This document shows, in pieces, positions 3,967-35,509 of a stretch of DNA of 35,621 nt (the stretch's first letter is position 1; every line of letters starts with the position of its first letter). A model generated the notes under the pieces. That model worked only from the letters and a program-made list of their open reading frames with translations. It did not search any database and was not told the DNA's origin. The stretch is from Muribaculaceae bacterium Zag1 (lineage in GTDB: Bacteria; Bacteroidota; Bacteroidia; Bacteroidales; Muribaculaceae), in contig NWBJ01000113.1 in NCBI GenBank assembly GCA_002633115.1, positions 1 to 35,621 of the forward strand, given 5' to 3'. Made by a program: the position numbers and the translations under genes.

Positions 3967-5486
3967 ATGAAATTTTTTATTGTTTCAGCAATATTATAGG
4001 CCAAAAGCACTGGTACTGCATTTCCTATCTGCATATAAGTCTTGAGATAAGAACCCATAAAAATATAATCATCAGGAAATGATTGGATTCTAGCAGCCTC
4101 TCGAGGCGTAATTGTACGCGTCTGAGTAGGATGAATATGAGACAAGCAGTCCATTCTTAAATGAGCCGTGATAGTTCTACATGGTTTGTTTTCTTCTAAT
4201 CTAAAATATTTATCTTTAAAACAATGAAGACGGTGTTCATAAGGCATGATACCTTTAATTTTATAATTGGAGGCATCCTCTCCTTGACCTAACAGAGAAA
4301 ATATTTTATAATTCGTATCACTGGCATATCTAGCTTTATGATTAAATGTCAATGGAATTTGACGATGATCATTAATCAGGTCTAAATACTCATTAGATGT
4401 AGAATATGGATTAATATCAACTTTTTTTCCTGTTGCCTCATCATCAGTTTCTGTAAGGCCTTTGATTCTAGGAGATTCTAAAGGTTTTATATATTCCAAA
4501 GCATCCTTTAATATGTAATGCTGTGGTTTTTTCCTTTTGTTTAAGCCCTCAAAAATATTCTCTGGGGTAATATTTCTGGCTCTCACTATATCGCTTCGAA
4601 CAGCTATATAAATCAACCTAATTCGATTTTGGGCAACATCGAAATCAGCTGAGTTAACCAATTGATAGCTAACCTCATAATGAACTATTTGATTCTTTAC
4701 TTTAGATTTTATATTTCTATAGTCCTCTACCACTTGTTGGGCAACCGATAGCATCCCTTTAACGTTCTCCATAACTACAATTTTTGGAGCTATTTCTTCA
4801 ACAGCCTTCAAAAAATACTTGTAGAGCTCGTTACGAGGATCGTCAATGATTCTTTGCTGATTTGCCGAACTGAAACCTTGACAGGGAGGGCCACCTATTA
4901 CAACATCAACAGGATAAGGAAGAAAATTTGTAACCTTATTACATAATTCTCTTATGTCCATATTGATGATAGAACTTTGAGGAATCTCCGGATGATTGAG
5001 GGTATAGGTTGCCAAACATTCCTCAACTATATCATTAGCCAAAAGAATATTATATCCAGATTTTGAAAATCCTAGACTCATACCTCCCGCTCCACAGAAG
5101 AAATCCACTACAGTAGGAGAGAAGGTAAGTATATTTTTTCTACATTCTATCCTGGATCTATTACGAAGTTTGTTAATCCATGGATTATAGATTTCGGGAT
5201 TGCTTAAGAATAATTCAACCGAAGATATAAAACGAACGAATAAGGTAGGAGTTAGAATTTTTTTTAAACAAGGTAAATCTTTCCTCGTCTCAATTACTCC
5301 TATATTCTTCAATTCTTCCACGACCCCATTAGATATATCCTTAGGAATTAGGAAAATTTCTTCAGGAGAGGTATCCATTACTTCAGCCGACAGACATTCA
5401 ATAATACGAATGTACAAAAGAACTTTTTCTGTAAAGAAGTCCTTCTCTCTCTTATTTTTTATATCAGATACCGACTGAAATATCAT
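3963..5486 (-). CDS. DNA (cytosine-5) methyltransferase, second of the pair
   Basis: 507 aa m5C methyltransferase. Motif I DFFCGAGGMS (about 128-137), catalytic motif IV PPCQGFSS with Cys202, motif VI ENV (240-242), motif VIII QNRIR (286-290), motif IX REAARIQSFP (462-471) and motif X QIGNAVP (486-492) are all present, so the enzyme looks intact. About 125 residues precede motif I, an extension not seen in the first methyltransferase. The long stretch between motifs VIII and IX is the expected target-recognition domain. Two different m5C methyltransferases in one operon fit LlaJI-like systems, whose recognition site is asymmetric so that each enzyme protects one strand. Start and stop each overlap a neighbour by 4 bp. 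Confidence 0.92.
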   Translation of the reverse strand: MIFQSVSDIKNKREKDFFTEKVLLYIRIIECLSAEVMDTSPEEIFLIPKDISNGVVEELKNIGVIETRKDLPCLKKILTPTLFVRFISSVELFLSNPEIYNPWINKLRNRSRIECRKNILTFSPTVVDFFCGAGGMSLGFSKSGYNILLANDIVEECLATYTLNHPEIPQSSIINMDIRELCNKVTNFLPYPVDVVIGGPPCQGFSSANQQRIIDDPRNELYKYFLKAVEEIAPKIVVMENVKGMLSVAQQVVEDYRNIKSKVKNQIVHYEVSYQLVNSADFDVAQNRIRLIYIAVRSDIVRARNITPENIFEGLNKRKKPQHYILKDALEYIKPLESPRIKGLTETDDEATGKKVDINPYSTSNEYLDLINDHRQIPLTFNHKARYASDTNYKIFSLLGQGEDASNYKIKGIMPYEHRLHCFKDKYFRLEENKPCRTITAHLRMDCLSHIHPTQTRTITPREAARIQSFPDDYIFMGSYLKTYMQIGNAVPVLLAYNIAETIKNFI

Positions 5487-6700
5487 ATTAAATCTTCTAA
5501 TGTAGTTTTTATAGCTTTAGCCAATGCTTCAGCAAACAGACAAGGAACAGCGTTTCCAATCTGTTTGAATTTATCGCCACGTGAACCTTTAAATACAAAA
5601 TCGTCTGGGAAAGATTGTATTCGAGCCGCTTCCCGAACTGTAAATGATCGCGCTTGCTTAAAATCTGGATGAATAAATTGGAATCCATCCTTATGTATAT
5701 GAGCTAATATAGTCTTACTCGGTAAGTTCCACCATTGGACTACATAACTATTGTCAAATACCCGCGCATGTTCATGTTCAAGATCTGGTCTATTGTTACG
5801 CAAGTCCCTAAATGACCATTCATGAGCAATCATCTCTCGAAAGCGTTCTCTATCTTTTTCATTATGCTTCCTACAAATATGATCCCTCAAAGGATGAACT
5901 CCTTTTTTTCCAATTGCCTTCAAGAAATCATTATTACAAACATAATTAAAGGAATCTGTTGAGGCATCTTCACCAGGCGCAACTGGAGGTAAGTCTCCAA
6001 TAGCCTCTTTTACATCAACAAATTTTTTTAGACCCTTTTGATCTTCTGGGGCCATAGAGGGATCAAAATGAGTTTTGGTAATCCTCCTATACAAATCCCT
6101 TATATCTACGCCTTTTAAATCCTTTCTTATACCCATAATTATGAGTCTCTTCCTTATTTGAGGCACTCCATAATTAGCTGTATTGAAAAGAATAATCTCA
6201 GTGTCATCTACCACACAATACTTCTTACTTAAGGCTTCAATAATTTGGGGGAAGATTCGATTTCCTCCTACTCTTGCTGTAAGAAGACCAGTAACATTTT
6301 CAAAAACAAATACTTTTGGGAGGTAGTGTTCTAGAATGGAAACATAACTTTCAAACAAAAAGTTTCGAGCATCTTTCTCCATACCTACCCTATCTCGAAC
6401 TCTACCAGCAGTAGAATAGGCTTGACAAGGTGGACCTCCTATTATCACATCTACTTCCCTTTTATCTATAGCTTTGTCCATTTTAGCCAAGATATCAGGA
6501 GATTTTATGTCTTCTTCTATTACATCGTTTTCTGGAGAAGGATAGTTATAGTATCTCAACCGTTCCCTTAGTGTTTCACAAGCAGCATGGTCTATCTCGA
6601 CATGAGCCAAAGCTTTGAACCCTTGCCTATAAAACCCTTCGCTCAGGCCTCCGCATCCTGCGAAAAGGTCAACAAATGTATATGAGGTACTTTCTGACAA
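5483..6700 (-). CDS. DNA (cytosine-5) methyltransferase, first of the pair
   Basis: 405 aa m5C methyltransferase and first gene of the restriction-modification operon. Motif I DLFAGCGGLS (11-20), catalytic PPCQAYST (Cys92), ENV (134-136), QIRKR (181-185) and the C-terminal REAARIQSFP plus QIGNAVP motifs are intact. Motif I lies almost at the N-terminus, so little can be missing there. The only usable start in frame is the TTG at 6698-6700: no ATG occurs in frame between the upstream terminator and motif I. A TTG start would keep expression low. No clear promoter lies in the roughly 30 bp between the tRNA terminator and this start. Confidence 0.9.
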   Translation of the reverse strand: MSESTSYTFVDLFAGCGGLSEGFYRQGFKALAHVEIDHAACETLRERLRYYNYPSPENDVIEEDIKSPDILAKMDKAIDKREVDVIIGGPPCQAYSTAGRVRDRVGMEKDARNFLFESYVSILEHYLPKVFVFENVTGLLTARVGGNRIFPQIIEALSKKYCVVDDTEIILFNTANYGVPQIRKRLIIMGIRKDLKGVDIRDLYRRITKTHFDPSMAPEDQKGLKKFVDVKEAIGDLPPVAPGEDASTDSFNYVCNNDFLKAIGKKGVHPLRDHICRKHNEKDRERFREMIAHEWSFRDLRNNRPDLEHEHARVFDNSYVVQWWNLPSKTILAHIHKDGFQFIHPDFKQARSFTVREAARIQSFPDDFVFKGSRGDKFKQIGNAVPCLFAEALAKAIKTTLEDLI

Positions 6701-6771: not shown

Positions 6772-6804
6772 AAATTTCTCAACTTACTGACGGGCAGTAG
6801 TTAG

Positions 6805-6891
6805 CGGAGAGGACGAGATTCGAACTCGTGGTAGGATTGCTCCTACGTCAGTTTAGCAAACTGGTGGTTTCAGCCACTCACCCACCTCTCC
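6805..6891 (-). tRNA. tRNA-Ser (anticodon GCT)
   Basis: 87 nt with a full cloverleaf on the minus strand. The acceptor is GGAGAGG paired with CCTCTCC plus discriminator G. The anticodon loop TTGCTAA carries GCT, reading AGC/AGT serine codons. The long variable arm (GTAGGAGCAATCCTAC) is typical of serine tRNAs, and the T-arm is ACGAG-TTCGAAT-CTCGT. The CCA end is not encoded. The gene stands alone between the acyl-CoA ligase and the restriction-modification operon. A consensus promoter lies about 50 nt upstream and a hairpin terminator follows. Confidence 0.97.
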
Positions 6892-27772: not shown

Positions 27773-28138
27773 CTAAACTCCTAATACGATTGAGGCATCA
27801 ACATTTAGTTTGGTACTGATGGCACGGCCAACTTTCAATGTGGGCTCGCTTTTGCCGCTCAAATAATCGCTAATACGTGAGGCACTCACTCCAATCAGCT
27901 TGCCTAATTGAGCTTGAGTTAGCCCCATTTCGTACATGCGCAGTTTAAGCACGTCAATCAGCGAGGGGAGACCTAAGGCATAATGCTCCTCTGAGTAATC
28001 TGCCACAAGGTTGGAGAGGAGTTCCAGCTCTATCGCATTTGGATCATCCGGCAGGGCATCCTCTGGCACTGTATTCAACAATTCCTCCACACGGGCCACA
28101 GCCCATTCATATTGTTTTTCGTTCTCAATCTTTGTCAT
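27773..28138 (-). CDS. higA: HigA-type antitoxin (XRE helix-turn-helix)
   Basis: 121 aa. Residues about 70-100 are a canonical XRE HTH (LTQAQLGKLIGVSASRISDYLSG). The N-terminal half (EKQYEWAVARVEELLNTVP) is the helical part typical of HigA proteins of this long type. It follows the HigB toxin gene by 11 bp, the toxin-first order usual for hig modules. It should neutralise HigB and repress the operon. A truncated near-copy lies at 35322-35489 and a decayed relative at 32911-33100. Confidence 0.85.
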   Translation of the reverse strand: MTKIENEKQYEWAVARVEELLNTVPEDALPDDPNAIELELLSNLVADYSEEHYALGLPSLIDVLKLRMYEMGLTQAQLGKLIGVSASRISDYLSGKSEPTLKVGRAISTKLNVDASIVLGV

Positions 28139-28149
28139 AACTATTAGGC

Positions 28150-28446
28150 TTAAATTATACTGCAGTCCTTTATCTTGTCGTATTCTGCATGAGTTCCGAT
28201 AAATCGAATGTACACAAATTGTATCGTAAATCTAATGATCACTATTACTCGATATGAGTTACCCTTAATGTTGAATACATAACGCTGATTCCCAACAGAA
28301 TCAACGCTATTAAACGTCGCTTTGATGTCAGCATAGCTATGCCATTCCGATCGCTTCACAATCGTGGTCCATTCTTGTAAGGCAGCCTTAGCCTCTGGAT
28401 GAGCTTCGCTGTATTCCTTTAGGGCTTTCTCAGTGAATATCCTCAT
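28150..28446 (-). CDS. higB: HigB-type mRNA interferase toxin
   Basis: 98 aa from the ATG at 28446 (MRIFTEKALKEYSE). It fits the HigB family (RelE-like fold): an N-terminal HPEAKAALQEW helix, WHSYADIKATF, the RYVFNIKGNSYRVI strand pair and the closing IRFIGTHAEYDKI, which contains the His-Tyr-Lys residues of the family's active region. It should cleave mRNA on ribosomes when free of HigA. The longer frame to 28467 would start inside the -7 promoter box, so the inner ATG is preferred. Confidence 0.87.
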   Translation of the reverse strand: MRIFTEKALKEYSEAHPEAKAALQEWTTIVKRSEWHSYADIKATFNSVDSVGNQRYVFNIKGNSYRVIVIIRFTIQFVYIRFIGTHAEYDKIKDCSII

Positions 28447-28464
28447 GACTTCAAAAATATAACG

Positions 28465-28495
28465 CAAAGTTAATCATTAGGTTCCAATTTTCAAA
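28465..28495 (-). promoter_or_regulatory. Promoter of the higBA operon
   Basis: On the minus strand TTTG (28492-28495), 19 nt, TAACTTTG (28465-28472). Full consensus; the leader before the higB ATG at 28446 is very short. Confidence 0.85.
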
Positions 28496-28701: not shown

Positions 28702-28733
28702 TTTGGTATTCTCAATTAGAATTCGTAATTTTG
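28702..28733 (+). promoter_or_regulatory. Promoter of tRNA-like RNAs 1 and 2
   Basis: TTTG (28702-28705), 20 nt, TAATTTTG (28726-28733). Transcription should begin about 7 nt later, close to the first base of the closing stem of RNA 1 at 28745. Confidence 0.85.
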
Positions 28734-28744
28734 TACACATTTTA

Positions 28745-28835
28745 GTAGGTGATGGTAGAGCCATGATGTCGGAACGGAGGCTCCTCTAAGATTGGAGGAT
28801 GATGAGTGGGTTCGAGTCCCACCGCCATCACCTGC
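28745..28835 (+). ncRNA. tRNA-like structured RNA, copy 1
   Basis: 91 nt. A 12-bp closing stem (GTAGGTGATGGT with GCCATCACCTGC, two G-U pairs) encloses three arms: GAGCC...GGCTC around a constant loop containing TGATGTCGGAACGGA, a variable hairpin (CTCT-AAGATT-GGAG), and a T-arm-like hairpin GTGGG-TTCGAGT-CCCAC. The order recalls a tRNA cloverleaf, but the closing stem is 12 rather than 7 bp and no 7-nt anticodon loop is present. A consensus promoter ends 12 nt upstream. Copies 3 and 4 keep the stem pairing with different bases, which supports a real RNA structure. Confidence 0.75.
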
Positions 28836-28850
28836 ATTAGGAATTTATAT

Positions 28851-28935
28851 GGCAATGGTAGAGACGTGATGCCGGAACGGAGGCGTTACCATTAGTGGTG
28901 GCGTAGGAGTGGGTTCGAGTCCCACCGCCATTACC
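28851..28935 (+). ncRNA. tRNA-like structured RNA, copy 2
   Basis: 85 nt, 15 nt behind copy 1 and without its own promoter, so probably cotranscribed with it. The closing stem GGCAATGGT/GCCATTACC is shorter (9 positions, one C-A mismatch). The core reads TGATGCCGGAACGGAGG, the variable hairpin is ACCA-TTAG-TGGT and the T-arm-like hairpin is identical to copy 1. Gene 28976 begins 41 nt further on, so the tandem RNAs form its leader. Confidence 0.7.
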
Positions 28936-28975
28936 CTATTTAAGGCATTTCGGATACTTTAGTCCCGACATAATT

Positions 28976-29389
28976 ATGAAACCAAGGAAAACAAAGAATG
29001 ACTTTGTGGCCATTGGGGTGGATGAGGCCACAATGGCCAAAGCCTCAACAGGCGCTCCAATGCAGATTGCCATTGATCTTAACGATGACACCTACCGGGA
29101 AATAGTTGAAAACATTGACGGTAACCTCATACTGTCATGTGACCTGCCAGACTATTTCCACGGGGTATATTATTGGAATAAGGGGCAATTCCCTTATATC
29201 ATCAAGCCTGAGCTGAAGCGTGTGATGCTGGTAAATGATGGCAAGGCGTTGCCCATGACAATACAGTCGATTGAGCCATCAGCAGGATTAAGATTTCGTT
29301 TTGACCATGAAAACAAACGCACCGTCGAAGACCCCGATGGCGACAGCTGCGTCTGGCAAATCAACTTCACCATCCGACTTGAGCACTAA
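28976..29389 (+). CDS. Hypothetical protein of a duplicated pair, copy A
   Basis: 137 aa, no signal peptide or membrane helix. I do not recognise the family. The N-terminus is basic (MKPRKTKNDF); the rest is mixed and acidic (MQIAIDLNDDTYREIVENID, then DHENKRTVEDPDGDSC). From 29013 to 29361 the DNA differs at only three positions in 349 from copy B at 32521-32869, and only one change alters an amino acid. Copy A is expressed, if at all, from the promoter in front of the two tRNA-like RNAs; copy B has its own promoter and no RNA. Confidence 0.75.
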   Translation: MKPRKTKNDFVAIGVDEATMAKASTGAPMQIAIDLNDDTYREIVENIDGNLILSCDLPDYFHGVYYWNKGQFPYIIKPELKRVMLVNDGKALPMTIQSIEPSAGLRFRFDHENKRTVEDPDGDSCVWQINFTIRLEH

Positions 29390-29434
29390 CCTAAAAGGAT
29401 GAGAAAAGATTATGGCCCCCAGGGCCTATAGAGG

Positions 29435-29766
29435 CTATTTGCCGCAGCAGTGTTTATACTTTTTGCCACTGCCACAGGGACAAGGATCATTGCGGCCTAC
29501 TTTTGCCCCACTTTGCCATGGTTGAGCTTGGGACGGGAATTGCCACGCAATCTCCAGTAGGGTACGGTGTTGAAAAACTCCATGATTACTTCCAATGAGG
29601 ACTGTAAGTCCTTTAAATTCTCGAATAGGAAGTTCTCACTACAGTTGGGAATGGCCGAAGCGCGCGACTCATCTTGCTTCTCTATCCATAACTGACGGAC
29701 TATACATTCCAGTGTCCCGACTTCAGGGTCACCGTACTTTTCAGCCACCTTCTTCATCCTTTCCAA
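29435..29766 (-). pseudogene. SEC-C motif protein with frameshift
   Basis: The frame from 29766 reads ERMKKVAEKYGDPEVGTLECIVRQ... and stops at 29497. One base out of frame, the DNA goes on directly with [21 protein letters not shown] and a stop at 29435. This is the zinc-binding SEC-C motif that normally ends such proteins, so a single missing base (near the GGGG and AAAA runs around 29500-29510) has split the gene. The 5' end begins within a palindromic repeat at 29757-29787, so the N-terminus may also be lost. Function of the parent unknown; SEC-C is a small zinc ribbon. Confidence 0.8.
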
Positions 29767-29787
29767 TTCGGCGGTCAGTGACCGCCG
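29757..29787. repeat. Palindromic hairpin, copy 2 of a pair
   Basis: ATCCTTTCCAATT followed by arms CGGCGGTCA and TGACCGCCG with one base between them. It matches copy 1 (27671-27703) over about 30 bases. Here it sits between the SEC-C relic and the end of the antitoxin gene. Confidence 0.7.
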
Positions 29788-29794
29788 TTTTACT

Positions 29795-30175
29795 TTATGC
29801 TGGCATCAGCTTGGATTCATGTGAATCACACATTGCCTTATTAAGAGAATTAGAAATTGTTGAGGAATCTGAACATACCGTAATCAGGGTAACGTCCAAA
29901 GCTTTCTCCAATCTCCAGAGAGTTTCAAGGGTGAAATTTGTGTTGCCAGAAAGCATTTTGCTTACTGAAGATTTGGTAAGCCCTAATCGCTGGGCCAAAT
30001 CGTTTTGACTCATTTTCTTCTCTCGAAGCACTTTATGTACCCTTATAGCTATCTCTCCTGAAAGAATGAGCCAACTTTTGTCTTTCTTCAATGACTCAAT
30101 CTGCTCCTTTTCCTGAGGAGTATTAGGCGCTACAAATTCCTTGAATTTGTCTAAGTTAAAAGTAAGCGTGTTCAT
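29795..30175 (-). CDS. XRE antitoxin of second toxin-antitoxin pair
   Basis: 126 aa. An XRE helix-turn-helix occupies about residues 53-77 (MSQNDLAQRLGLTKSSVSKMLSG), preceded by a charged helix region (QEKEQIESLKKDKSW) as in HigA-like antitoxins. The start overlaps the stop of the upstream 187-aa gene by 4 bp, so the two are made together. It is the expected antitoxin and autorepressor of the pair. A 26-bp stretch near its 3' end (29848-29873) recurs exactly at 34265-34290 inside an antitoxin relic. Confidence 0.78.
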   Translation of the reverse strand: MNTLTFNLDKFKEFVAPNTPQEKEQIESLKKDKSWLILSGEIAIRVHKVLREKKMSQNDLAQRLGLTKSSVSKMLSGNTNFTLETLWRLEKALDVTLITVCSDSSTISNSLNKAMCDSHESKLMPA

Positions 30176-30735
30176 AACAAGTCAATTTTTTCAATTATGC
30201 CATTACTTTTGAAAAACTCTAATACATTGTCGATCTTCTTAGTCACTGTCTCATGTAGTTTCGGGGTATCTTTCATTTTCTTGGTGAGTTTTAATCCACC
30301 ATGAACGATAACATAAGTACCATCAGCCAGTTTTATTGCATATAAACGTAACATAGATGGGTAATTTAAACCGTAAGCCTTTTGAGGCACTAATTCCGTC
30401 ACAAAAACATATTCCCCATCCAGTGGTTTAAACCATCCATTTAATCTGCTTTTGGCTTCAGTGTCACTTACTAAAGATAAATCTTCAATGTACTCATTTA
30501 GTACGATTGCCTCTTTTCTGGTGAAGGAAGCGCAATCAATGGGATCCGTTACTGGATAACCTTGATTAATCCAAAAGGGAGTATTAATCAATTCAAAATT
30601 CTCAGTGAAGAAGTCTATTAAATAGTTAAGGTCTAACCAAGAGGCTAACGCTTGGTTATACTCTGACATAGTCTTCCCTTCCAACCTTACGCTGAAGAGG
30701 AGATCACTGCTTAATGGTGTAAATGTCATTTCCAT
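30172..30735 (-). CDS. Putative toxin partner of the XRE antitoxin
   Basis: 187 aa, larger than common RelE/HigB toxins. The C-terminal part (MLRLYAIKLADGTYVIVHGGLKLTKKMKD followed by a final helix) resembles the strand-rich half of RelE/HigB-like toxins in XRE-linked pairs. The N-terminal 100 residues are not recognised. The 4-bp overlap with an XRE antitoxin and the toxin-first order support the role. A consensus promoter ends 8 bp before the ATG at 30735, so the second ATG at 30729 may be the true start. An inverted repeat upstream (30788-30809) could be the operator. Confidence 0.55.
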   Translation of the reverse strand: MEMTFTPLSSDLLFSVRLEGKTMSEYNQALASWLDLNYLIDFFTENFELINTPFWINQGYPVTDPIDCASFTRKEAIVLNEYIEDLSLVSDTEAKSRLNGWFKPLDGEYVFVTELVPQKAYGLNYPSMLRLYAIKLADGTYVIVHGGLKLTKKMKDTPKLHETVTKKIDNVLEFFKSNGIIEKIDLL

Positions 30736-30742
30736 CTCAACG

Positions 30743-30774
30743 CAAAGTTAAGTAGAATTTATTATATAAACAAG
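30743..30774 (-). promoter_or_regulatory. Promoter of the second toxin-antitoxin operon
   Basis: On the minus strand CTTG (30771-30774), 20 nt, TAACTTTG (30743-30750). Confidence 0.75.
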
Positions 30775-30787
30775 AAAATCCTAGAAA

Positions 30788-30809
30788 AAGTTGAATTAAA
30801 GTTCAACTT
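30788..30809. promoter_or_regulatory. Inverted repeat, possible autoregulatory operator
   Basis: AAGTTGAA-TTAAAG-TTCAACTT, 8-bp arms just upstream of the -33 box of the toxin-antitoxin operon. The position suits binding by the XRE antitoxin; not proven. Confidence 0.5.
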
Positions 30810-30853
30810 ACAATTTTAATATCCTATCAAAATAATGTTAAATCTTTTTTTGA

Positions 30854-30909
30854 AAGACCTCGACCCCGCCATGCGCAAATTCATGCAGTCCCTCAAAGGA
30901 CAACACTAA
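30854..30909 (+). pseudogene. Relic of a gene 3' end, copy 2
   Basis: The plus frame reads KDLDPAMRKFMQSLKGQH and ends in TAA at 30907-30909. It is nearly identical to 28553-28606. A perfect 14-bp hairpin follows 9 bp after the stop, as a terminator would. No start or upstream coding sequence remains. The parent gene is not recognised. Confidence 0.65.
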
Positions 30910-30918
30910 CTGTCTTTC

Positions 30919-30996
30919 CCTGAAAAAAGTTTGATTCACAAAGGGGTAAACTTTTTTCAGGACAAGACATTCACAAAGTAGCAAACTTTTTCCTGG
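30919..30996. repeat. Perfect hairpin repeat with a second half-copy
   Basis: Arms CCTGAAAAAAGTTT (30919-30932) and AAACTTTTTTCAGG (30948-30961) enclose a 15-nt loop containing GATTCACAAA. A second, partial unit follows at 30965-30996 (ATTCACAAAGTAGCAAACTT, then TTTCCTGG). This is the best-preserved copy of the repeat also seen at 25021 and 28653. Before the relic decayed it could have acted as its terminator. Confidence 0.8.
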
Positions 30997-31029
30997 AGAA
31001 AGAGGCGCCAATAAATATTTGGTATTTCT

Positions 31030-31060
31030 TTTGGGGTGCCAACTAAATTTCGTAACTTTG
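31030..31060 (+). promoter_or_regulatory. Promoter of tRNA-like RNA 3
   Basis: TTTG (31030-31033), 19 nt, TAACTTTG (31053-31060), ending 11 nt before the RNA at 31072. Confidence 0.85.
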
Positions 31061-31071
31061 TACACCCTTTA

Positions 31072-31165
31072 GCAGATGATGGGAGAGACATGATATTGGA
31101 ACGGAGGGGTTGTCATCTTAGATGACAGCATAGGAGTGGGTTCGAGTCCCACCCCCATCATCTGC
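31072..31165 (+). ncRNA. tRNA-like structured RNA, copy 3
   Basis: 94 nt. The closing stem is a perfect 12 bp, GCAGATGATGGG with CCCATCATCTGC, although several bases differ from copies 1 and 4: both sides have changed together. The core reads TGATATTGGAACGGAGG. The variable hairpin is TGTCATC-TTA-GATGACA. The T-arm-like hairpin is GTGGG-TTCGAGT-CCCAC. The last base overlaps the stop codon of the convergent gene at 31165, so this copy does not lead into a plus-strand gene. Confidence 0.75.
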
Positions 31166-31680
31166 TATTTTATTCTAATAAATTCATTGGGGTCATCAAA
31201 ATTTGTCTTACTGTCAAATTTAGACCCAGTGACAATAATTACATGTTTCCCATTCTTCTTTATTTTTTTGTTAGGATTTACATAGAATTTAGTATTGTTC
31301 GATCTATCTACGTAGATAAAGCCTCTATCTTTTTTCTCAAAATATAGCTCCATCTTTTTATACTTTATCGGGAAGTCAATCAAGTCTTGATGACTAACAG
31401 TCTTTCCATCCTTGGCTTTGCTGTCCCTAAGAGCATGTTGTATTTGAAAAGGAGACATCATTAAGTCCTGGCCCGCAAGCTCGATATTATTCTTCCTACA
31501 GAAATCGATCATTACTTTTTCCACGTTTCCAATCTTAAAGGGCGTTTTGGGAAGTTCCCTGTTTGGTTGGATGGATAAAATTTGAGCCTTGATAAATCTT
31601 TGAGCCTCCGTGATAATCGCTTGCGGGCTTGAACTACCTCTGCGCCGTGAGCATCTCACGCCACCGCTGCTCTTAGCCAT
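31165..31680 (-). CDS. Small DUF4417-linked protein, possible phage-type nuclease domain
   Basis: 171 aa. The N-terminus MAKSSGGVRCSRRRGSSS is a short basic leader like that of small proteins found next to DUF4417 genes in phages and integrative elements. The C-terminal half alternates strands (MELYFEKKDRGFIYVD, KHVIIVTGSKFD) and resembles, by eye, the Barnase-EndoU-ColicinE5/D-RelE-like (PBECR) nuclease group; this match is weak. It starts 6 bp after the DUF4417 gene, so the two form an operon. Its stop codon overlaps the 3' end of tRNA-like RNA 3 on the other strand by one base. Confidence 0.5.
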   Translation of the reverse strand: MAKSSGGVRCSRRRGSSSPQAIITEAQRFIKAQILSIQPNRELPKTPFKIGNVEKVMIDFCRKNNIELAGQDLMMSPFQIQHALRDSKAKDGKTVSHQDLIDFPIKYKKMELYFEKKDRGFIYVDRSNNTKFYVNPNKKIKKNGKHVIIVTGSKFDSKTNFDDPNEFIRIK

Positions 31681-31686
31681 TACAGA

Positions 31687-32298
31687 CTAATTCTTAGGCT
31701 TTATGTTAGGCACGTGAGACTCAACATAGAGCAAATCATGGCTCTGACACCAACTTTTGATTTTTCTGCCTCCGCCGTATACAATCAGATTTGGCATTTC
31801 CACGCCTGATATCTCTTTGGCAATTTGCAGCTCTTGGGCCAAAACTTCTTCTTGGTTCTCATGCCCCACAGTGAAGAAGGCATTGTATCCCTCAGGAATA
31901 CCCATGCGGTTGTACTCTTGGAATTTGGGCGCCACATTAAGGTCTGCCCATACTCGTACGCCACATTCCTGCAGCCATCTGGCAATCCATCTCTTTCTGT
32001 AAATCTGGTGGATGCCAAAAGCAATTGGTGTTGTCTGGAACAGGGAGAAGTTGGGCTCAACCACTTCACTGCTTCCAGTCATAACCACCTTGGCAGGATC
32101 TTTCCATATCGCCTCAAAGCGATAATCGTCGACATAGAAGTGGTAGGTTGACACCTTGGTTTTGCTGCGGCTCATAGTGCCCCAGCCAGCGAATGGGAGT
32201 AGCAACCCCGATTTGGGCTGCATATCCAGAAGGAGAGTTGGAATCTCCATCGGATTGTTGCTCGCAAAAATGCGATCTTGCACAAAAGGTCTTTGCAT
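31687..32298 (-). CDS. DUF4417 family protein
   Basis: 203 aa from the ATG at 32298. Features of DUF4417 are present: LLPFAGWGT near the start, YHFYVDDYRFEAIW, VVEPNFSLFQTTPIAFGIHQIYRKRWI and FFTVGHENQEEV, then LIVYGGGRKIKSW. The family is common in phages and mobile elements and its function is unknown. It heads a two-gene operon with the SSGG-leader protein. A -7 box at 32323-32330 lies upstream, which excludes the longer frame starting at 32325. Confidence 0.8.
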   Translation of the reverse strand: MQRPFVQDRIFASNNPMEIPTLLLDMQPKSGLLLPFAGWGTMSRSKTKVSTYHFYVDDYRFEAIWKDPAKVVMTGSSEVVEPNFSLFQTTPIAFGIHQIYRKRWIARWLQECGVRVWADLNVAPKFQEYNRMGIPEGYNAFFTVGHENQEEVLAQELQIAKEISGVEMPNLIVYGGGRKIKSWCQSHDLLYVESHVPNIKPKN

Positions 32299-32322
32299 TG
32301 TTATGGTCTTAGGATTACAATG

Positions 32323-32330
32323 CAAAGTTA
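32323..32330 (-). promoter_or_regulatory. -7 element for the DUF4417 operon
   Basis: TAACTTTG on the minus strand, 24 bp before the ATG at 32298. No clear -33 box. Confidence 0.5.
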
Positions 32331-32422
32331 CACCCTTCCACCCTGGACATCTCTATATTCTCATAATCACGAAACCATTAATAGGATTAACAGGGTGAAA
32401 GGGATTCAAAATTAAAGGTATT

Positions 32423-32454
32423 TTTGGGATTATCCTGGAGAATTTGTAATTTTG
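32423..32454 (+). promoter_or_regulatory. Promoter of duplicated gene copy B
   Basis: TTTG (32423-32426), 20 nt, TAATTTTG (32447-32454). It excludes the longer frame that begins at 32424, so translation starts at 32478. Confidence 0.85.
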
Positions 32455-32477
32455 CCATAGATTTGACAAGAATAATT

Positions 32478-32894
32478 ATGAAACCGAGGAAAAAACAAAT
32501 ACAGAATGACTTTTTGGCCGTTGGGGTGGATGAGGCCACAATGGCCAAAGCCTCAACAGGAGCTCCAATGCAGATTGCCATTGATCTTAACGATGATACC
32601 TACCGGGAAATAGTTGAAAACATTGACGGTAACCTCATACTGTCATGTGACCTGCCAGACTATTTCCACGGGGTATATTATTGGAATAAGGGGCAATTCC
32701 CTTATATCATCAAGCCTGAGCTGAAGCGTGTGATGCTGGTAAATGATGGCAAGGCGTTGCCCATGGCAATACAGTCGATTGAGCCATCAGCAGGATTAAG
32801 ATTTCGTTTTGACCATGAAAACAAACGCACCGTCGAAGACCCCGATGGCGACAGCTGCGTCTGGCAAATAACCTTTACCATCCAGTTTGAATAA
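32478..32894 (+). CDS. Hypothetical protein of a duplicated pair, copy B
   Basis: 138 aa from the ATG at 32478 (MKPRKKQIQNDFLAVGVDEA). Family not recognised. It is nearly identical to copy A (28976-29389): over 349 aligned bases only three differ, while the first 40 and last 30 bases and the flanks are clearly different. That pattern suits recent gene conversion or duplication of the middle part only. Unlike copy A it lies directly behind a consensus promoter with no tRNA-like RNA in its leader. No membrane segment or signal peptide. Confidence 0.78.
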   Translation: MKPRKKQIQNDFLAVGVDEATMAKASTGAPMQIAIDLNDDTYREIVENIDGNLILSCDLPDYFHGVYYWNKGQFPYIIKPELKRVMLVNDGKALPMAIQSIEPSAGLRFRFDHENKRTVEDPDGDSCVWQITFTIQFE

Positions 32895-32910
32895 CGATTC
32901 GGATAAATTC

Positions 32911-33100
32911 ATGGAGATAAAAAGAACAGTACGAATACGCCCTCCAAAGAATCGAAGAGCTCTTTCCTGTAGTTACCGACGAAATGCCAACCTCTGATTC
33001 AAGAGTGGTTGAGCTTTCATTGGTGTCAGACATAGTGGAGGCTTAAGAGAAGAAGCATTATCCAATTGACAAGTCTTCAATAGCCGACATCATACGATAG
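32911..33100 (+). pseudogene. Decayed HigA-type antitoxin
   Basis: From 32927 the plus strand reads QYEYALQRIEELFPVV...VVELSLVSDIVEA, stop, EKKHYPIDKSSIADIIR, stop. It follows the N-terminal half of HigA (compare QYEWAVARVEELLNTV and EHYALGLPSLIDVL in the intact protein at 27773). A start codon at 32911 is one base out of frame. With one frameshift and two stops and no HTH part left, it is a relic. It is more diverged from the intact copy than the fragment at 35322. The rest of the 362-bp gap, 33101-33256, shows nothing I can support. Confidence 0.75.
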
Positions 33101-33256
33101 GTCGCGGGCATCCTTATTCCGTGCTGGGCATCGCTCCAGCCGTAATGTGAGGCCTATAGAATTATTCTGATCCCCTACAATTTACAAAATCATTACTGAT
33201 GATTAGCCAAAATGCGAATTTGACAACTAAAAGGTTTGTTCCAATCATCAGAATGC

Positions 33257-34180
33257 TTATCTAAGGAGTGTAAGAGCATTATAGTTGCGAACGGCTGACT
33301 GCGGGGAATTGTTGGCATAGCAGTAAAGGCAGCCATGGGGGCAGGTGTTGTAGGCGCCAATATCCTTGCTTAGGATGCAGCCGCAGGCTTTGCGCTGCCC
33401 TTTGTCTTTGCTTGCTCCGAATAGCCACAGCTGTAAAGCTGGGTCATCAGGGGCAAGCCGTCCGATTAGAGCCGGGTCGATGCAACGATTGTGCTGGATG
33501 CCGAATTGCTCCAAGCTGACTGATTCCGCGCAGGTCGCAAGCTCCAGGTGAAGCTCTGCATCATTAAGCTTCGACAAGCCATCAGCAAAATCTTTCATTT
33601 GTGATTCGGTCCATTCGTAAAAGCTAACGCCAGCATTCCTTAGGTTAGCTCCGACTTTCCTGTAACCAGCTATGTCGGCGTAGCTGAACACCAACTTCTC
33701 AGTGTAGCCGCAAAGTTGCAACCCGATTTTACGGATCTTTCCCAATAACCCATCCATGTCGATTTTATCGGTCAGAATCAGCGGATCGAAGCGCCAAACA
33801 ACGCGCCCCACGCCATATTGATCAACAATTCTTCTGAACGTGTCTATCCTATCTTGAATTGGGGGCACATTCGGCTCCAACTCTTCCTCCTCATAATCGT
33901 TGAGGGTGAATTGGATATAGAACCCTATCCCCCTATCCTTTAGTCGCGGGAGATAGGGCAATAGAGGCTTGGGATTCTTTGACCAAAACACCATAAAACG
34001 GGTGTTGGCATAACTAACATAAGAGGGCTTCCCATTGTAGGGATTTACCCACAGAGTGTAGCCTCTGTCCAACCCCCTGAAAAATGAATCCGCATAGAAG
34101 GCAGGTATGTCAGTGGCTCGGCTTGCCGACACTATCACTGGCGCAAGGGCTTTAACCCATTCTCCAGATTCACTCTTCAT
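33257..34180 (-). CDS. DUF1848 radical-SAM-like protein
   Basis: 307 aa from the ATG at 34180 (MKSESGEWVKALAPVIVSASRATDIPAFY). The opening SASRATDIPAFYADSFFRGLDRGY and ARxMVFWSKNPKPLLPYL-type segments are typical of DUF1848. A cysteine cluster near the C-terminus (Cys266, Cys268, then Cys280-x3-Cys284-x2-Cys287 in NTCPHGCLYCYAN) has the CxxxCxxC spacing that binds a 4Fe-4S cluster in radical SAM enzymes, unusual in lying at the C-terminal end. The reaction is unknown. Two earlier ATGs are excluded or doubtful because the -7 box lies at 34217-34224. Confidence 0.85.
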   Translation of the reverse strand: MKSESGEWVKALAPVIVSASRATDIPAFYADSFFRGLDRGYTLWVNPYNGKPSYVSYANTRFMVFWSKNPKPLLPYLPRLKDRGIGFYIQFTLNDYEEEELEPNVPPIQDRIDTFRRIVDQYGVGRVVWRFDPLILTDKIDMDGLLGKIRKIGLQLCGYTEKLVFSYADIAGYRKVGANLRNAGVSFYEWTESQMKDFADGLSKLNDAELHLELATCAESVSLEQFGIQHNRCIDPALIGRLAPDDPALQLWLFGASKDKGQRKACGCILSKDIGAYNTCPHGCLYCYANNSPQSAVRNYNALTLLR

Positions 34181-34216
34181 TTCTATATGTGTATTAGTCC
34201 TCATGCGCTTTTTCTG

Positions 34217-34251
34217 CAAAGTTAGCTATTCTACGAGGCAATATTATTGCC
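34217..34251 (-). promoter_or_regulatory. Promoter -7 box and palindrome of the DUF1848 gene
   Basis: TAACTTTG on the minus strand (34217-34224). A 15-bp palindrome GGCAATA-T-TATTGCC (34237-34251) covers the place where the -33 box should be, so a bound repressor there would block transcription. Confidence 0.55.
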
Positions 34252-34259
34252 CATTAGTG

Positions 34260-34361
34260 TTAAAAATTAGAAATTGTTGAGGAATCTGAATAGCCTATTT
34301 CTTTTATTTCAAGAGTCGTGCTGTTGACGCCCCCTCTGAACCATGGTTGTATAGTTTTCAT
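34260..34361 (-). pseudogene. Antitoxin 3'-end relic with a short open frame
   Basis: A 33-codon frame from an ATG at 34361 ends YSDSSTISNF, stop. Its last part contains 26 bases (34265-34290) identical to the 3' region of the antitoxin gene at 29848-29873, where the protein reads CSDSSTISNS. The first 20 codons are unlike that antitoxin. Probably a deletion remnant of a second copy of that toxin-antitoxin pair. Confidence 0.6.
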
Positions 34362-34396
34362 AATTGCTCCATTCAATCGTAAAGATAGTGATTTTG

Positions 34397-34414
34397 TTTC
34401 ACATATATGTGAAA
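34397..34414. promoter_or_regulatory. Perfect 18-bp palindrome, likely operator
   Basis: TTTCACATATATGTGAAA, fully self-complementary. It lies 36-53 bp above the start of the relic frame at 34361, with TATCTTTA (one base from the -7 consensus) in between on the minus strand. It may be the orphan operator of the lost toxin-antitoxin operon. Confidence 0.55.
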
Positions 34415-34501
34415 TTTAATAGATAATTTTCAAATCTTGATTGTTCTTTATCAAGCAATTTACTACTCAGTACAACCCAATAGGATTCAAACCAAATAAC
34501 T

Positions 34502-34534
34502 GAATTGGAAATCACAAAGTGTGATATCCAATTC
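34502..34534. repeat. Hairpin with 15-bp arms, one mismatch
   Basis: GAATTGGAAATCACA (34502-34516) and TGTGATATCCAATTC (34520-34534) with a 3-nt loop. It lies in the 470-bp stretch without a protein gene between the antitoxin relic and the PH-domain gene. A smaller hairpin CTTGAT...ATCAAG precedes it near 34437-34456. Function unknown. Confidence 0.65.
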
Positions 34535-34660
34535 TGTCTTTACTTCAAATCAAAGGAAATCCGCATCGCTGCTTATACCCCAACACAAATGGTATATTTA
34601 CCTCGAACACTCAAGGAGTTCAGGAATCTTACGTCCTTGATCAACTAAATCTGGAATTCC

Positions 34661-34692
34661 TTTGGTATTATCGATTAGAATTTATAACTTTG
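34661..34692 (+). promoter_or_regulatory. Promoter of tRNA-like RNA 4
   Basis: TTTG (34661-34664), 20 nt, TAACTTTG (34685-34692), ending 11 nt before the RNA. The whole promoter region is closely similar to that of RNA 1 from about 34649 on. Confidence 0.85.
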
Positions 34693-34703
34693 TACACACT
34701 TTA

Positions 34704-34794
34704 GTAGGTGATGGTAGAGCCATGATGTCGGAACGGAGGCTCTGCTCATACGAGCAGAAGAGGAGTGGGTTCGATTCCCACCGCCATCGCCTAC
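34704..34794 (+). ncRNA. tRNA-like structured RNA, copy 4
   Basis: 91 nt, the same length as copy 1. The closing stem is GTAGGTGATGGT with GCCATCGCCTAC: compared with copy 1, a G-U pair has become A-U and an A-U pair has become G-U, and pairing is kept. The first 40 bases equal copy 1, but the variable hairpin is entirely different (TCTGCTC-ATAC-GAGCAGA) and still perfectly paired. The T-arm-like hairpin is GTGGG-TTCGATT-CCCAC. The PH-domain gene starts 38 nt later, so this RNA is in its leader. Confidence 0.75.
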
Positions 34795-34831
34795 TTCCAA
34801 TGTTGAATTTCTAAATCAGAGGTTGATAACC

Positions 34832-35296
34832 ATGGTAAGCAAAGGAAGGACTGTGAAATACAAATCAAAGATAGACTGGTGGATTGGCGCCATATTATGG
34901 GTGCCAGCACTCGTATTGGTAGCCATTTGGATCAATGCCGCGATTAGCTTCTCAAGTCAGGACTTATTGATACTGGTGTTGGTGTCTCTCCCCACCATAT
35001 TTTCTTTCTGGCTGGTAGGAAGCGTCTTTTTTAACACGTATTATATCATAAACGGTGCTGCCCTCACAGTGAGATGCGGCGTAATGATGAACACCAAGAT
35101 AAAAATCGATGAGGTTGCCTCCATCATGCCTACAAAGACAAAGCTTTCATCCCCGGCTCTTTCTACCGACCGCCTTGAGATCCGCTATGGCAAATACGGC
35201 AAAGTGGTAATCTCGCCTGAAAACAAGGAGGCTTTCATAGCGCAATGCAAAGCCCTCAACCCAGCAATTGAGACAATAGAATGTGAAGCCGGATGA
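34832..35296 (+). CDS. Small membrane protein with bacterial PH domain
   Basis: 154 aa from the ATG at 34832; a TTG nine bases earlier is in frame but less likely. Two membrane helices (about 16-34, WWIGAILWVPALVLVAIW, and 45-67) are followed by a bacterial PH-like domain (YYIINGAALTVRCGVMMNTKIKIDEVASI, then GKVVISPENKEAFIAQCKAL). This is the layout of bPH-domain proteins of the PF06713 type. Role unknown. It is the only gene behind tRNA-like RNA 4 and probably shares its transcript. Confidence 0.8.
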   Translation: MVSKGRTVKYKSKIDWWIGAILWVPALVLVAIWINAAISFSSQDLLILVLVSLPTIFSFWLVGSVFFNTYYIINGAALTVRCGVMMNTKIKIDEVASIMPTKTKLSSPALSTDRLEIRYGKYGKVVISPENKEAFIAQCKALNPAIETIECEAG

Positions 35297-35321: not shown

Positions 35322-35489
35322 TCATAAGGCATAATGCTCCTCTGAGTAATCTGCCACAAGGTTGGATAGGAGTTCCAGTTCGATGGCTCTTGGATGATCC
35401 GGCAGGGCATCCTCTGGCACTGTATTCAACAATTCCTCCACACGGGCCACAGCCCATTCATATTGCTTTTCGTTCTCAATCTTCGTCAT
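35322..35489 (-). pseudogene. Truncated HigA antitoxin copy
   Basis: 55 codons from the ATG at 35489, almost identical to the N-terminus of the antitoxin at 27773-28138 (DDPNAI became DHPRAI). Identity ends abruptly after EEHYAL, where a stop follows, so the whole HTH half is missing. No toxin gene precedes it in this window. Confidence 0.85.
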
Positions 35490-35509
35490 AAGTAAGTGGT
35501 CACTTAAAC

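Follow-up and report, generated by a model that had tools for sequence, protein, structure and literature searches.

The window analysed here, the whole 35,621-nucleotide contig NWBJ01000113.1 of Muribaculaceae bacterium Zag1 (assembly GCA_002633115.1), carries four copies of a small tRNA-like RNA which, together with relatives from viral contigs and other genomes, almost certainly make up a real structured RNA family. The usual neighbour of this RNA is a convergent gene for a putative RNase, and the explanation that we favour, while granting it only even chances, is a toxin-antitoxin-like module in which the tRNA-mimic RNA restrains the RNase; within this explanation we infer RNase activity, toxicity, neutralisation, mechanism and transcription. 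An earlier note on this DNA had proposed a promoter-driven family of tRNA-like RNAs. That reading is supported, but it had missed the convergent gene, the open reading frame (ORF) at 31165-31680, which three of the window copies (t1, t2 and t4) lack.

All four elements, announced by the earlier note at 28745, 28851, 31072 and 34704, were found at those places by reading of the sequence and by a pattern scan, and the common core and T-arm described for them (GGAACGGAGG, GAGnCnTGAT and GTGGGTTCGAnTCCCAC) occur in every copy. In the 4.46-Mb genome, the pattern GGAACGGAGGN{10,40}GTGGGTTCGANTCCCAC has four forward matches, all inside the window, with none in reverse and none in the reversed control. 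The elements lie on the plus strand. While t3 (31070..31166) is the RNA of a complete module, t1 (28743..28836), t2 (28846..28939, in tandem behind t1) and t4 (34702..34795) are orphan RNAs without a partner protein. In t3, a closing stem (31070-31083 with 31154-31167) encloses the core (31085-31107), a middle hairpin (31109-31129) and the T-arm (31136-31152), all on the same strand. The promoter-like boxes expected before three copies, TTTG-N19/20-TAnnTTTG, are present before t1 (28702..28733, TTTG-N20-TAATTTTG), t3 (31030..31060, TTTG-N19-TAACTTTG) and t4 (34661..34692, TTTG-N20-TAACTTTG), on the plus strand as well, and end 11, 9 and 10 nt before the respective stems; they resemble Bacteroidetes-type promoters. 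The tandem copy t2 has no box of its own.

The closing stem, previously put at 12 bp in three copies, has this length in t1 only and reaches 14 bp in t3 and 13 bp in t4; it is perfect in t1 and t4 and decayed in t2 (11 bp with two mismatches). Folded alone, t1, t3 and t4 adopt a cloverleaf whose hairpin loops measure 4, 3 and 4 nt respectively, in line with the claim that a 7-nt anticodon loop is missing. Energy z-scores are -3.77 for t1, -1.58 for t2, -5.33 for t3 and -4.49 for t4. Applied to the four copies jointly, RNAalifold recovers the closing stem, the middle hairpin and the T-stem; for 11 of the 29 pairs, one or more of the sequences differ at both positions.

Using a covariance model built on the four window copies (R1), a second family model (R2), pattern scans and protein searches, the family was extended to 12 loci with 11 distinct RNAs, the RNAs of the viral contigs L030 and L047 being identical in sequence. 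Over 61 genomes, R1 gave one more strong match, in a same-genus genome (G006, 93.3 bits; this Bacteroidales copy is locus L063), and weak matches in G029 and G019, both left out. Pattern scans of viral and genome collections gathered 42 and 11 stretches; R1 scored 32 of the loci found by pattern or model, and the remainder were judged from their sequences. L057, L058, L059, L062, L063, L030 and L047 score 55.9-93.3 bits with R1, and family members obtain at least 64.3 bits with R2, whose next match within the same eight genomes or records stands at 23.5 bits. The remaining members come from metagenome-assembled genomes (MAGs) of ruminants: L057 and, in the same genome, L078 (goat omasum, Bacteroidales; L078 was located by protein search), L058 (red deer, Bacteroidales), L059 (red deer, labelled Alphaproteobacteria) and L062 (roe deer rumen, Paludibacteraceae). 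The family is rare, since among 393 genomes of the order R2 and the pattern match an RNA in G000 only, R2 having been run with the stricter filters of Infernal, under which weak matches are lost. Scans of viral contigs with patterns for a broader family returned mostly unrelated coding matches and true tRNAs, and the RNAs of L030 and L078 have no match in the phage collection.

Two weak R1 matches, L009 (G029; 32.5 bits) and L010 (26.7 bits), were left out as the core motif is absent from them. L009 (1501-1591; G029:C3:63857-63947), located between tRNA-Gln and tRNA-Leu, itself resembles a cloverleaf, having a T-arm and a middle hairpin of 9 bp; ARAGORN is silent on it.

The larger alignment brings out the covariation for which the earlier note had asked. 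In a MAFFT alignment of the 11 distinct RNAs (A5), made without structure and with rows cut at the R1 match ends, 18 of 29 pairs are changed on both sides and 89% of cells are paired. The covariation score is 0.516, against 0.168 for shuffled alignments (standard deviation 0.024; reached in 0/500 shuffles, a count that is not a probability because the sequences are related), and sliding the partners by 1-3 columns brings it to 0.172 at most. The signal comes from the closing helix (9/12 pairs) and from the middle hairpin (9/9 pairs, 75.3% of cells paired). The T-stem is hardly variable, and a 3-bp D-like stem is weakly supported, with 84.8% of cells paired and no double change.

From 5' to 3', the element is made of the TAnnTTTG box, the first strand of the closing stem, AGAGnCnTGAT, GGAACGGAGG (replaced by GGAACGGTGG in L078), the hairpin, a GAG spacer, the T-arm and the 3' strand of the stem. 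The box lies 1-12 nt before the stem in 10 of the 11 distinct elements, t2 being the exception. The RNAs measure 91-108 nt, and the closing stem, far from a fixed 12 bp, spans 10-22 bp. The sequence of the middle hairpin varies among most elements and its pairs are kept. The T-arm (GTGGG-TTCGAnT-CCCAC) shows small changes in L030 and L078. A T-rich sequence follows the stem on its 3' side in all seven distinct module RNAs and in none of the four orphans.

These elements had been judged to be neither normal tRNAs nor members of a known family, and both judgements are supported. At gathering score, no Rfam family matches any of the four window copies; the tRNA model (RF00005) gives them 18.8-22.8 bits for a gathering score of 29, and ARAGORN recognises 0/4. 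The only tRNA of the window found by ARAGORN, and by Rfam at gathering score, is a tRNA-Ser (6804-6891). Permissive Rfam scans of t3 and L030, the two relatives so scanned, gave no match over the cut-off. For bacterial Y RNA in particular there is no Rfam match over the cut-off, and no Ro-type gene came up in the Pfam scans of some neighbouring ORFs through which Ro was sought. An ordinary or decayed tRNA was rejected on this sub-cut-off score, on a closing stem of 10-22 bp instead of a 7-bp acceptor and on the lack of a 7-nt anticodon loop. Hairpin loops measure 3-5 nt wherever the single-sequence fold forms the hairpin (t1, t3, t4, L030/L047, L057 and L058); for L078, the hairpin region was read by eye and not from such a fold. 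The T-arm itself is tRNA-like, with a 5-bp T-stem, paired in 100% of cells, and a TTCRANY-type loop, although L078 reads as 4 bp. Since the middle hairpin ends in a short loop whose sequence is not conserved, ordinary decoding by these RNAs is very unlikely. The elements thus share with tRNAs (RF00005) and with mascRNA-like tRNA mimics (RF01684) the cloverleaf plan and the T-arm with its TTCGAnT loop, and differ from both by the long closing stem, the absent anticodon loop, an extra 5' segment and scores below gathering.

The gene that meets the RNA in the window (31165..31680, minus strand) encodes a 171-aa putative BECR-type RNase toxin with an H/R/K helix motif and a C-terminal T. Relatives of this gene stand tail-to-tail with the RNA 3' end at L057, L058, L059, L062, L047, L030 and L078, so that, t3 included, 8 of the 12 loci are modules, counted as six distinct ones. 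In all eight, the genes are convergent and either overlap or are spaced by at most 12 nt, with one RNA per module; tandem RNAs occur only in the orphan pair t1-t2. The proteins have 115-187 aa and share 31-55% identity with the L062 member. Searches starting from the protein point to the same association. Two runs over viral contigs returned the same two loci each time, both with RNA (the L078 protein, used as query there, had no match); the 61 genomes gave one match, with RNA; and the 393 genomes of the order gave two, one in G000, with RNA, and a weak, partial one in G400, whose 1,824-base locus holds no RNA and which presumably resembles the end of UvrB. In the seven genomes or records behind the loci, seven matches were obtained in six of them, each with RNA. 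One of these is L078, found by its protein and whose RNA was then located at the predicted place, convergent and at the same end (R1 E-value 5.7e-7); it is the sole new locus predicted by the protein, because those seven genomes had been chosen through the RNA. The window, L062 and L078 proteins have no match in the phage collection, and the window protein has none in the plasmid collection. RNA without partner protein exists at 4 of the 12 loci (t1, t2, t4 and G006), and the searches made gave no convincing partner protein without RNA, an asymmetry that may be likened to that of toxin-antitoxin pairs. Altogether, RNA and protein very probably form a true module, composed of two genes of about 100 and 500 bp.

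As for the protein, the His and Arg of an H..R..K stretch and the Thr of a V..(I/V)T strand are kept in six of the seven aligned sequences. The exception is L057, whose partner gene (5012-5575, plus strand) lacks the H..R stretch and the C-terminal Thr strand and runs on through the RNA in antisense; this protein looks inactive, and its RNA is intact. PBECR domains are described, in the available part of PMC5512222, as a helix and four or five strands with a His in the helix and a C-terminal Thr or Ser, and as occurring also solo in phages; the BECR/PBECR residue layout is likewise given in the available part of PMC3482391. The layout of the partner residues fits this description, and we consider a BECR-type RNase to be the likely nature of the protein. 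The likeness extends to size and setting, since both are small solo phage proteins; the partner protein differs in that it matches no PBECR model (the families used here being PF18812 and PF18813), and an RNA partner is unmentioned for PBECR in what is available of PMC5512222. Seven proteins gave no PBECR hit up to an E-value of 10, in a search where the HMMER filters drop most weak matches.

Solo PBECR3 genes deserve a separate observation. There are five PBECR3 matches in 149 genomes (and none for PBECR4 at an E-value of 1e-5), and at three solo genes, L123 (1387-1794, plus strand), L124 (1495-1956, minus strand) and L127 (172-606, minus strand), the convergent 3' flank has a TAnnTTTG box and then a strong terminator-like hairpin within ~100-120 nt. 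The chance from shuffling is 0.11-0.17 per locus, and a fourth locus (L145, viral and multidomain) is without the box. R2 has no match at L123, L124 or L127. Solo PBECR3 genes of the same order possibly have the same layout with other RNAs and, because they may share it, the module described here could be one branch of a wider class.

How might such a module work? Found on viral contigs and in accessory regions, for the most part in Bacteroidales, it would pair a cloverleaf RNA (intact T-arm, D-arm-like core, a variable hairpin where a tRNA has its anticodon arm, a 10-22 bp closing stem) with a metal-independent endoribonuclease of the BECR kind, acting on tRNA or on another RNA with a tRNA-like elbow. 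The RNA would fill the substrate site through its D/T elbow and, offering no anticodon loop to cut, would behave as a non-cleavable competitor and hence as the antitoxin. A tRNA-like elbow deprived of an anticodon loop is the form to be expected of such a competitor for a tRNA-cutting enzyme. If RNA synthesis were lost, by phage takeover or loss of the element, the RNase would be freed. The orphans t1, t2, t4 and the G006 copy would be RNAs remaining after loss of the protein gene, and three of them (t2, t4 and the G006 copy) would by now sit 5' of other genes. That the RNA neutralises the protein as a tRNA mimic is, in our estimation, evenly balanced.

Several observations weigh against this picture. 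On the RNA side, the family is small; the minimum-energy fold of t2 alone is not a cloverleaf, its hairpin appearing only in the joint fold; and the G006, L062 and L059 RNAs fold otherwise in the middle when folded alone. The loci with a partner were all reached through the RNA, except for L078, whose genome was reached through the RNA, and for the viral pair, which was re-found by protein. On the protein side, no Pfam, PHROG, NCBIfam or PADLOC model names the partner, and in the L030/L047 type (L143, 950-1429) a stop codon breaks the frame before the core domain begins. An hhalign comparison with three PBECR3 proteins sets His on His in its register and is not significant (P 0.19). The placement of the His helix and Thr strand rests on two AlphaFold models of low pLDDT (predicted local distance difference test; 43.7 and 42.0), from which Foldseek on PDB and BFVD, and VIA-align, returned nothing usable. 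Because of this P value and of structure models that are too poor, the BECR assignment is a likely inference and not a membership.

The main rival, which we hold to be unlikely although clearly ahead of those that follow, is that the RNA acts in cis, as a leader or as a substrate. The tRNA-like fold would be bound or cut by the partner protein (or by RNase P/Z), which would in this way control the RNA carrying the fold, and the protein would be a regulator or processing enzyme, not a toxin, with two further genes placed under it by t1/t2 and t4. It is favoured by the position of three orphans. Each of t2, t4 and the G006 copy ends 36-37 nt ahead of a gene that begins in the same direction, and none has the U-rich tail seen in the module RNAs. 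The gene behind t2 (28976..29389, plus strand; 137 aa, of unknown family) starts 37 nt after its end, and a near-copy at about 32478-32894 (98% over 300 nt) has a similar promoter but no RNA. Behind t4 stands a gene for a bPH_4 protein (34832..35296, plus strand), its ATG, placed by eye at 34832, being 37 nt after t4 (the ORF list starts it at a TTG, 34823), and L063 has the same arrangement. Furthermore, an RNase acting on its own partner RNA would resemble the processing of ToxI by ToxN, as far as the available part of PMC5086642 describes it. However, the module RNA is a free-standing gene aimed at the end of the protein gene and has a terminator-like tail, and G006 keeps the RNA and its downstream gene, with a decayed stem and with no partner protein found.

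A type I-like antisense action, in which the RNA, made from the opposite strand towards the 3' end of the protein gene, would pair with the mRNA and lower its expression, appears improbable. The two genes do meet, and in L030, L062 and L078 the U-rich tail of the RNA is antisense to the last codons (...IKIK stop). Yet the conserved T-arm, the D-like core and the covarying stems are not needed for such an action, the modelled RNA stops 12 nt short of the gene in L058 and L059, and the partner protein is not a small hydrophobic peptide.

Equally improbable is a phage-derived tRNA used as a decoy against host defences that cut tRNAs, the neighbouring protein being a separate cargo gene. Phages do use tRNAs to evade tRNA-targeting defences, according to the available parts of PMC10264068 and PMC11555353, and the closest true tRNAs in the 38 sources scanned, which include host and phage tRNAs, are phage tRNA-Cys and a phage tRNA-Arg with GGAACGGAGG; these obtain 28.5-38.7 bits with R2, and everything else in those sources stays at or below 21.8. 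This likeness is partly chosen, however, since these tRNAs were retrieved by that very motif; moreover, the anticodon loop, target of anticodon nucleases, is absent from the elements, and the same protein family stands at the RNA end across six distinct modules. An origin of the element from tRNA-Cys is no more than a hint, given that the similar phage tRNAs came out of a search with the motif in common, and the host's own tRNA-Cys is not outstanding in its likeness to the elements. Finally, a hairpin that matters only as DNA, as a terminator or a mobile-element end, and is devoid of RNA function could account for the long inverted arms with T-rich tails at modules and would suit the putative transposase ORF near the module in L059, but is very improbable given the promoter box in 10 of the 11 distinct elements, the conservation of the T-loop and core at unpaired positions and an inner hairpin that covaries independently.

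Two side observations concern true or odd tRNAs. Phage tRNA clusters contain tRNA-Arg(ACG) and tRNA-Cys(GCA) genes with the unusual GGAACGGAGG (L005 508-589, L015 2400-2473 and L051 8470-8543), and the host has an odd tRNA-like gene (G000:C62:105322-105400, minus strand, locus L111) to which ARAGORN gives no single identity (Ser or Leu, 'agag') and which Rfam scores at 39.9 bits.

The surroundings of the elements suit toxin-antitoxin-like modules as regards the viral contigs L030/L047, the restriction locus of L059 and the HigB-type toxin-antitoxin genes of the window. The latter are a helix-turn-helix (HTH) gene (27773-28138) beside a HigB_toxin gene (28150-28467); part of this HTH gene is repeated, 94% identical, at 35325-35494, at the other end of the region, and a second HTH gene of the window adjoins a gene of unknown function. 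Next to the partner gene, a DUF4417 gene (31687..32325) lies on the same minus strand and ends 6 nt before the partner start, which makes a shared transcript possible; a DUF1848 gene (33257-34219, minus strand) belongs to the same accessory stretch. Because t1 and t3 have homologous upstream flanks, t1 has the look of a module duplicate from which the protein has disappeared. In G006, the stem of the RNA carries three mismatches, and the 5' half is like t3 and the 3' half like t4, as if recombined. L062 and L047 show a phage-like gene order with a ParB-like gene (Pfam, below cut-off), and further probable phage genes, read from the ORFs and not from a family scan: terminase and portal in L062, tape measure in L047. 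L059 adjoins an EcoRI-like methylase gene and a GmrSD/HNH gene, and a nearby ORF with no Pfam hit is one that we take to be transposase-like.

Should the favoured explanation be true, RNA antitoxins would go beyond operon-encoded repeats or antisense RNAs, and a mobile element would disarm an RNase toxin with a counterfeit tRNA. The module would then offer a natural probe of how tRNA-cutting toxins recognise their substrate, and would give both an unnamed protein family and an RNA family outside the Rfam models scanned here a function that can be tested. Somewhat short of an even chance, it would represent a new type of RNA antitoxin: a free-standing mimic of the tRNA elbow, with a long acceptor-like stem and no anticodon loop, serving as an uncuttable analogue for a convergent BECR-type RNase.

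Among the matches listed in the open-licence literature, none reports a tRNA-like RNA antitoxin or this RNA-protein pairing, and the closest known systems resemble the module in part. Type III toxin-antitoxin systems (ToxIN, CptIN and TenpIN) and the module have in common a gene for a small, structured RNA next to one for a small protein, a putative RNase toxin, which the RNA would block directly. As described in the available part of PMC5086642, however, type III RNAs are pseudoknots encoded upstream in one operon, as tandem repeats that a terminator follows. The RNA described here is tRNA-like, occurs once per module and runs convergently from a promoter-like site of its own, and this convergent order also tells against the favoured explanation. 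In the AbiF/RCd22 system of a Clostridioides difficile prophage, a non-coding RNA of ~100-130 nt with its own promoter and a predicted terminator binds and neutralises the toxin, an Abi_2-type protein; RCd22 lies upstream of abiF and has two abiF motifs (PMC12373285, in its available part). This pair shares with our module a phage-borne putative toxin and an RNA partner of similar size, but differs in the upstream position of RCd22; in both type III and AbiF/RCd22 the RNA precedes the toxin gene, and within the portions available neither RNA is called tRNA-like. The phage tRNAs that evade defences are likewise tRNA-shaped RNAs of phage genomes with a possible decoy role, but they are real tRNAs altered in the anticodon loop, as the available part of PMC10264068 has it, and the present elements have no such loop. 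The module is best filed as a variant among RNA-antitoxin modules, and the chance that it constitutes a new type is a real one.

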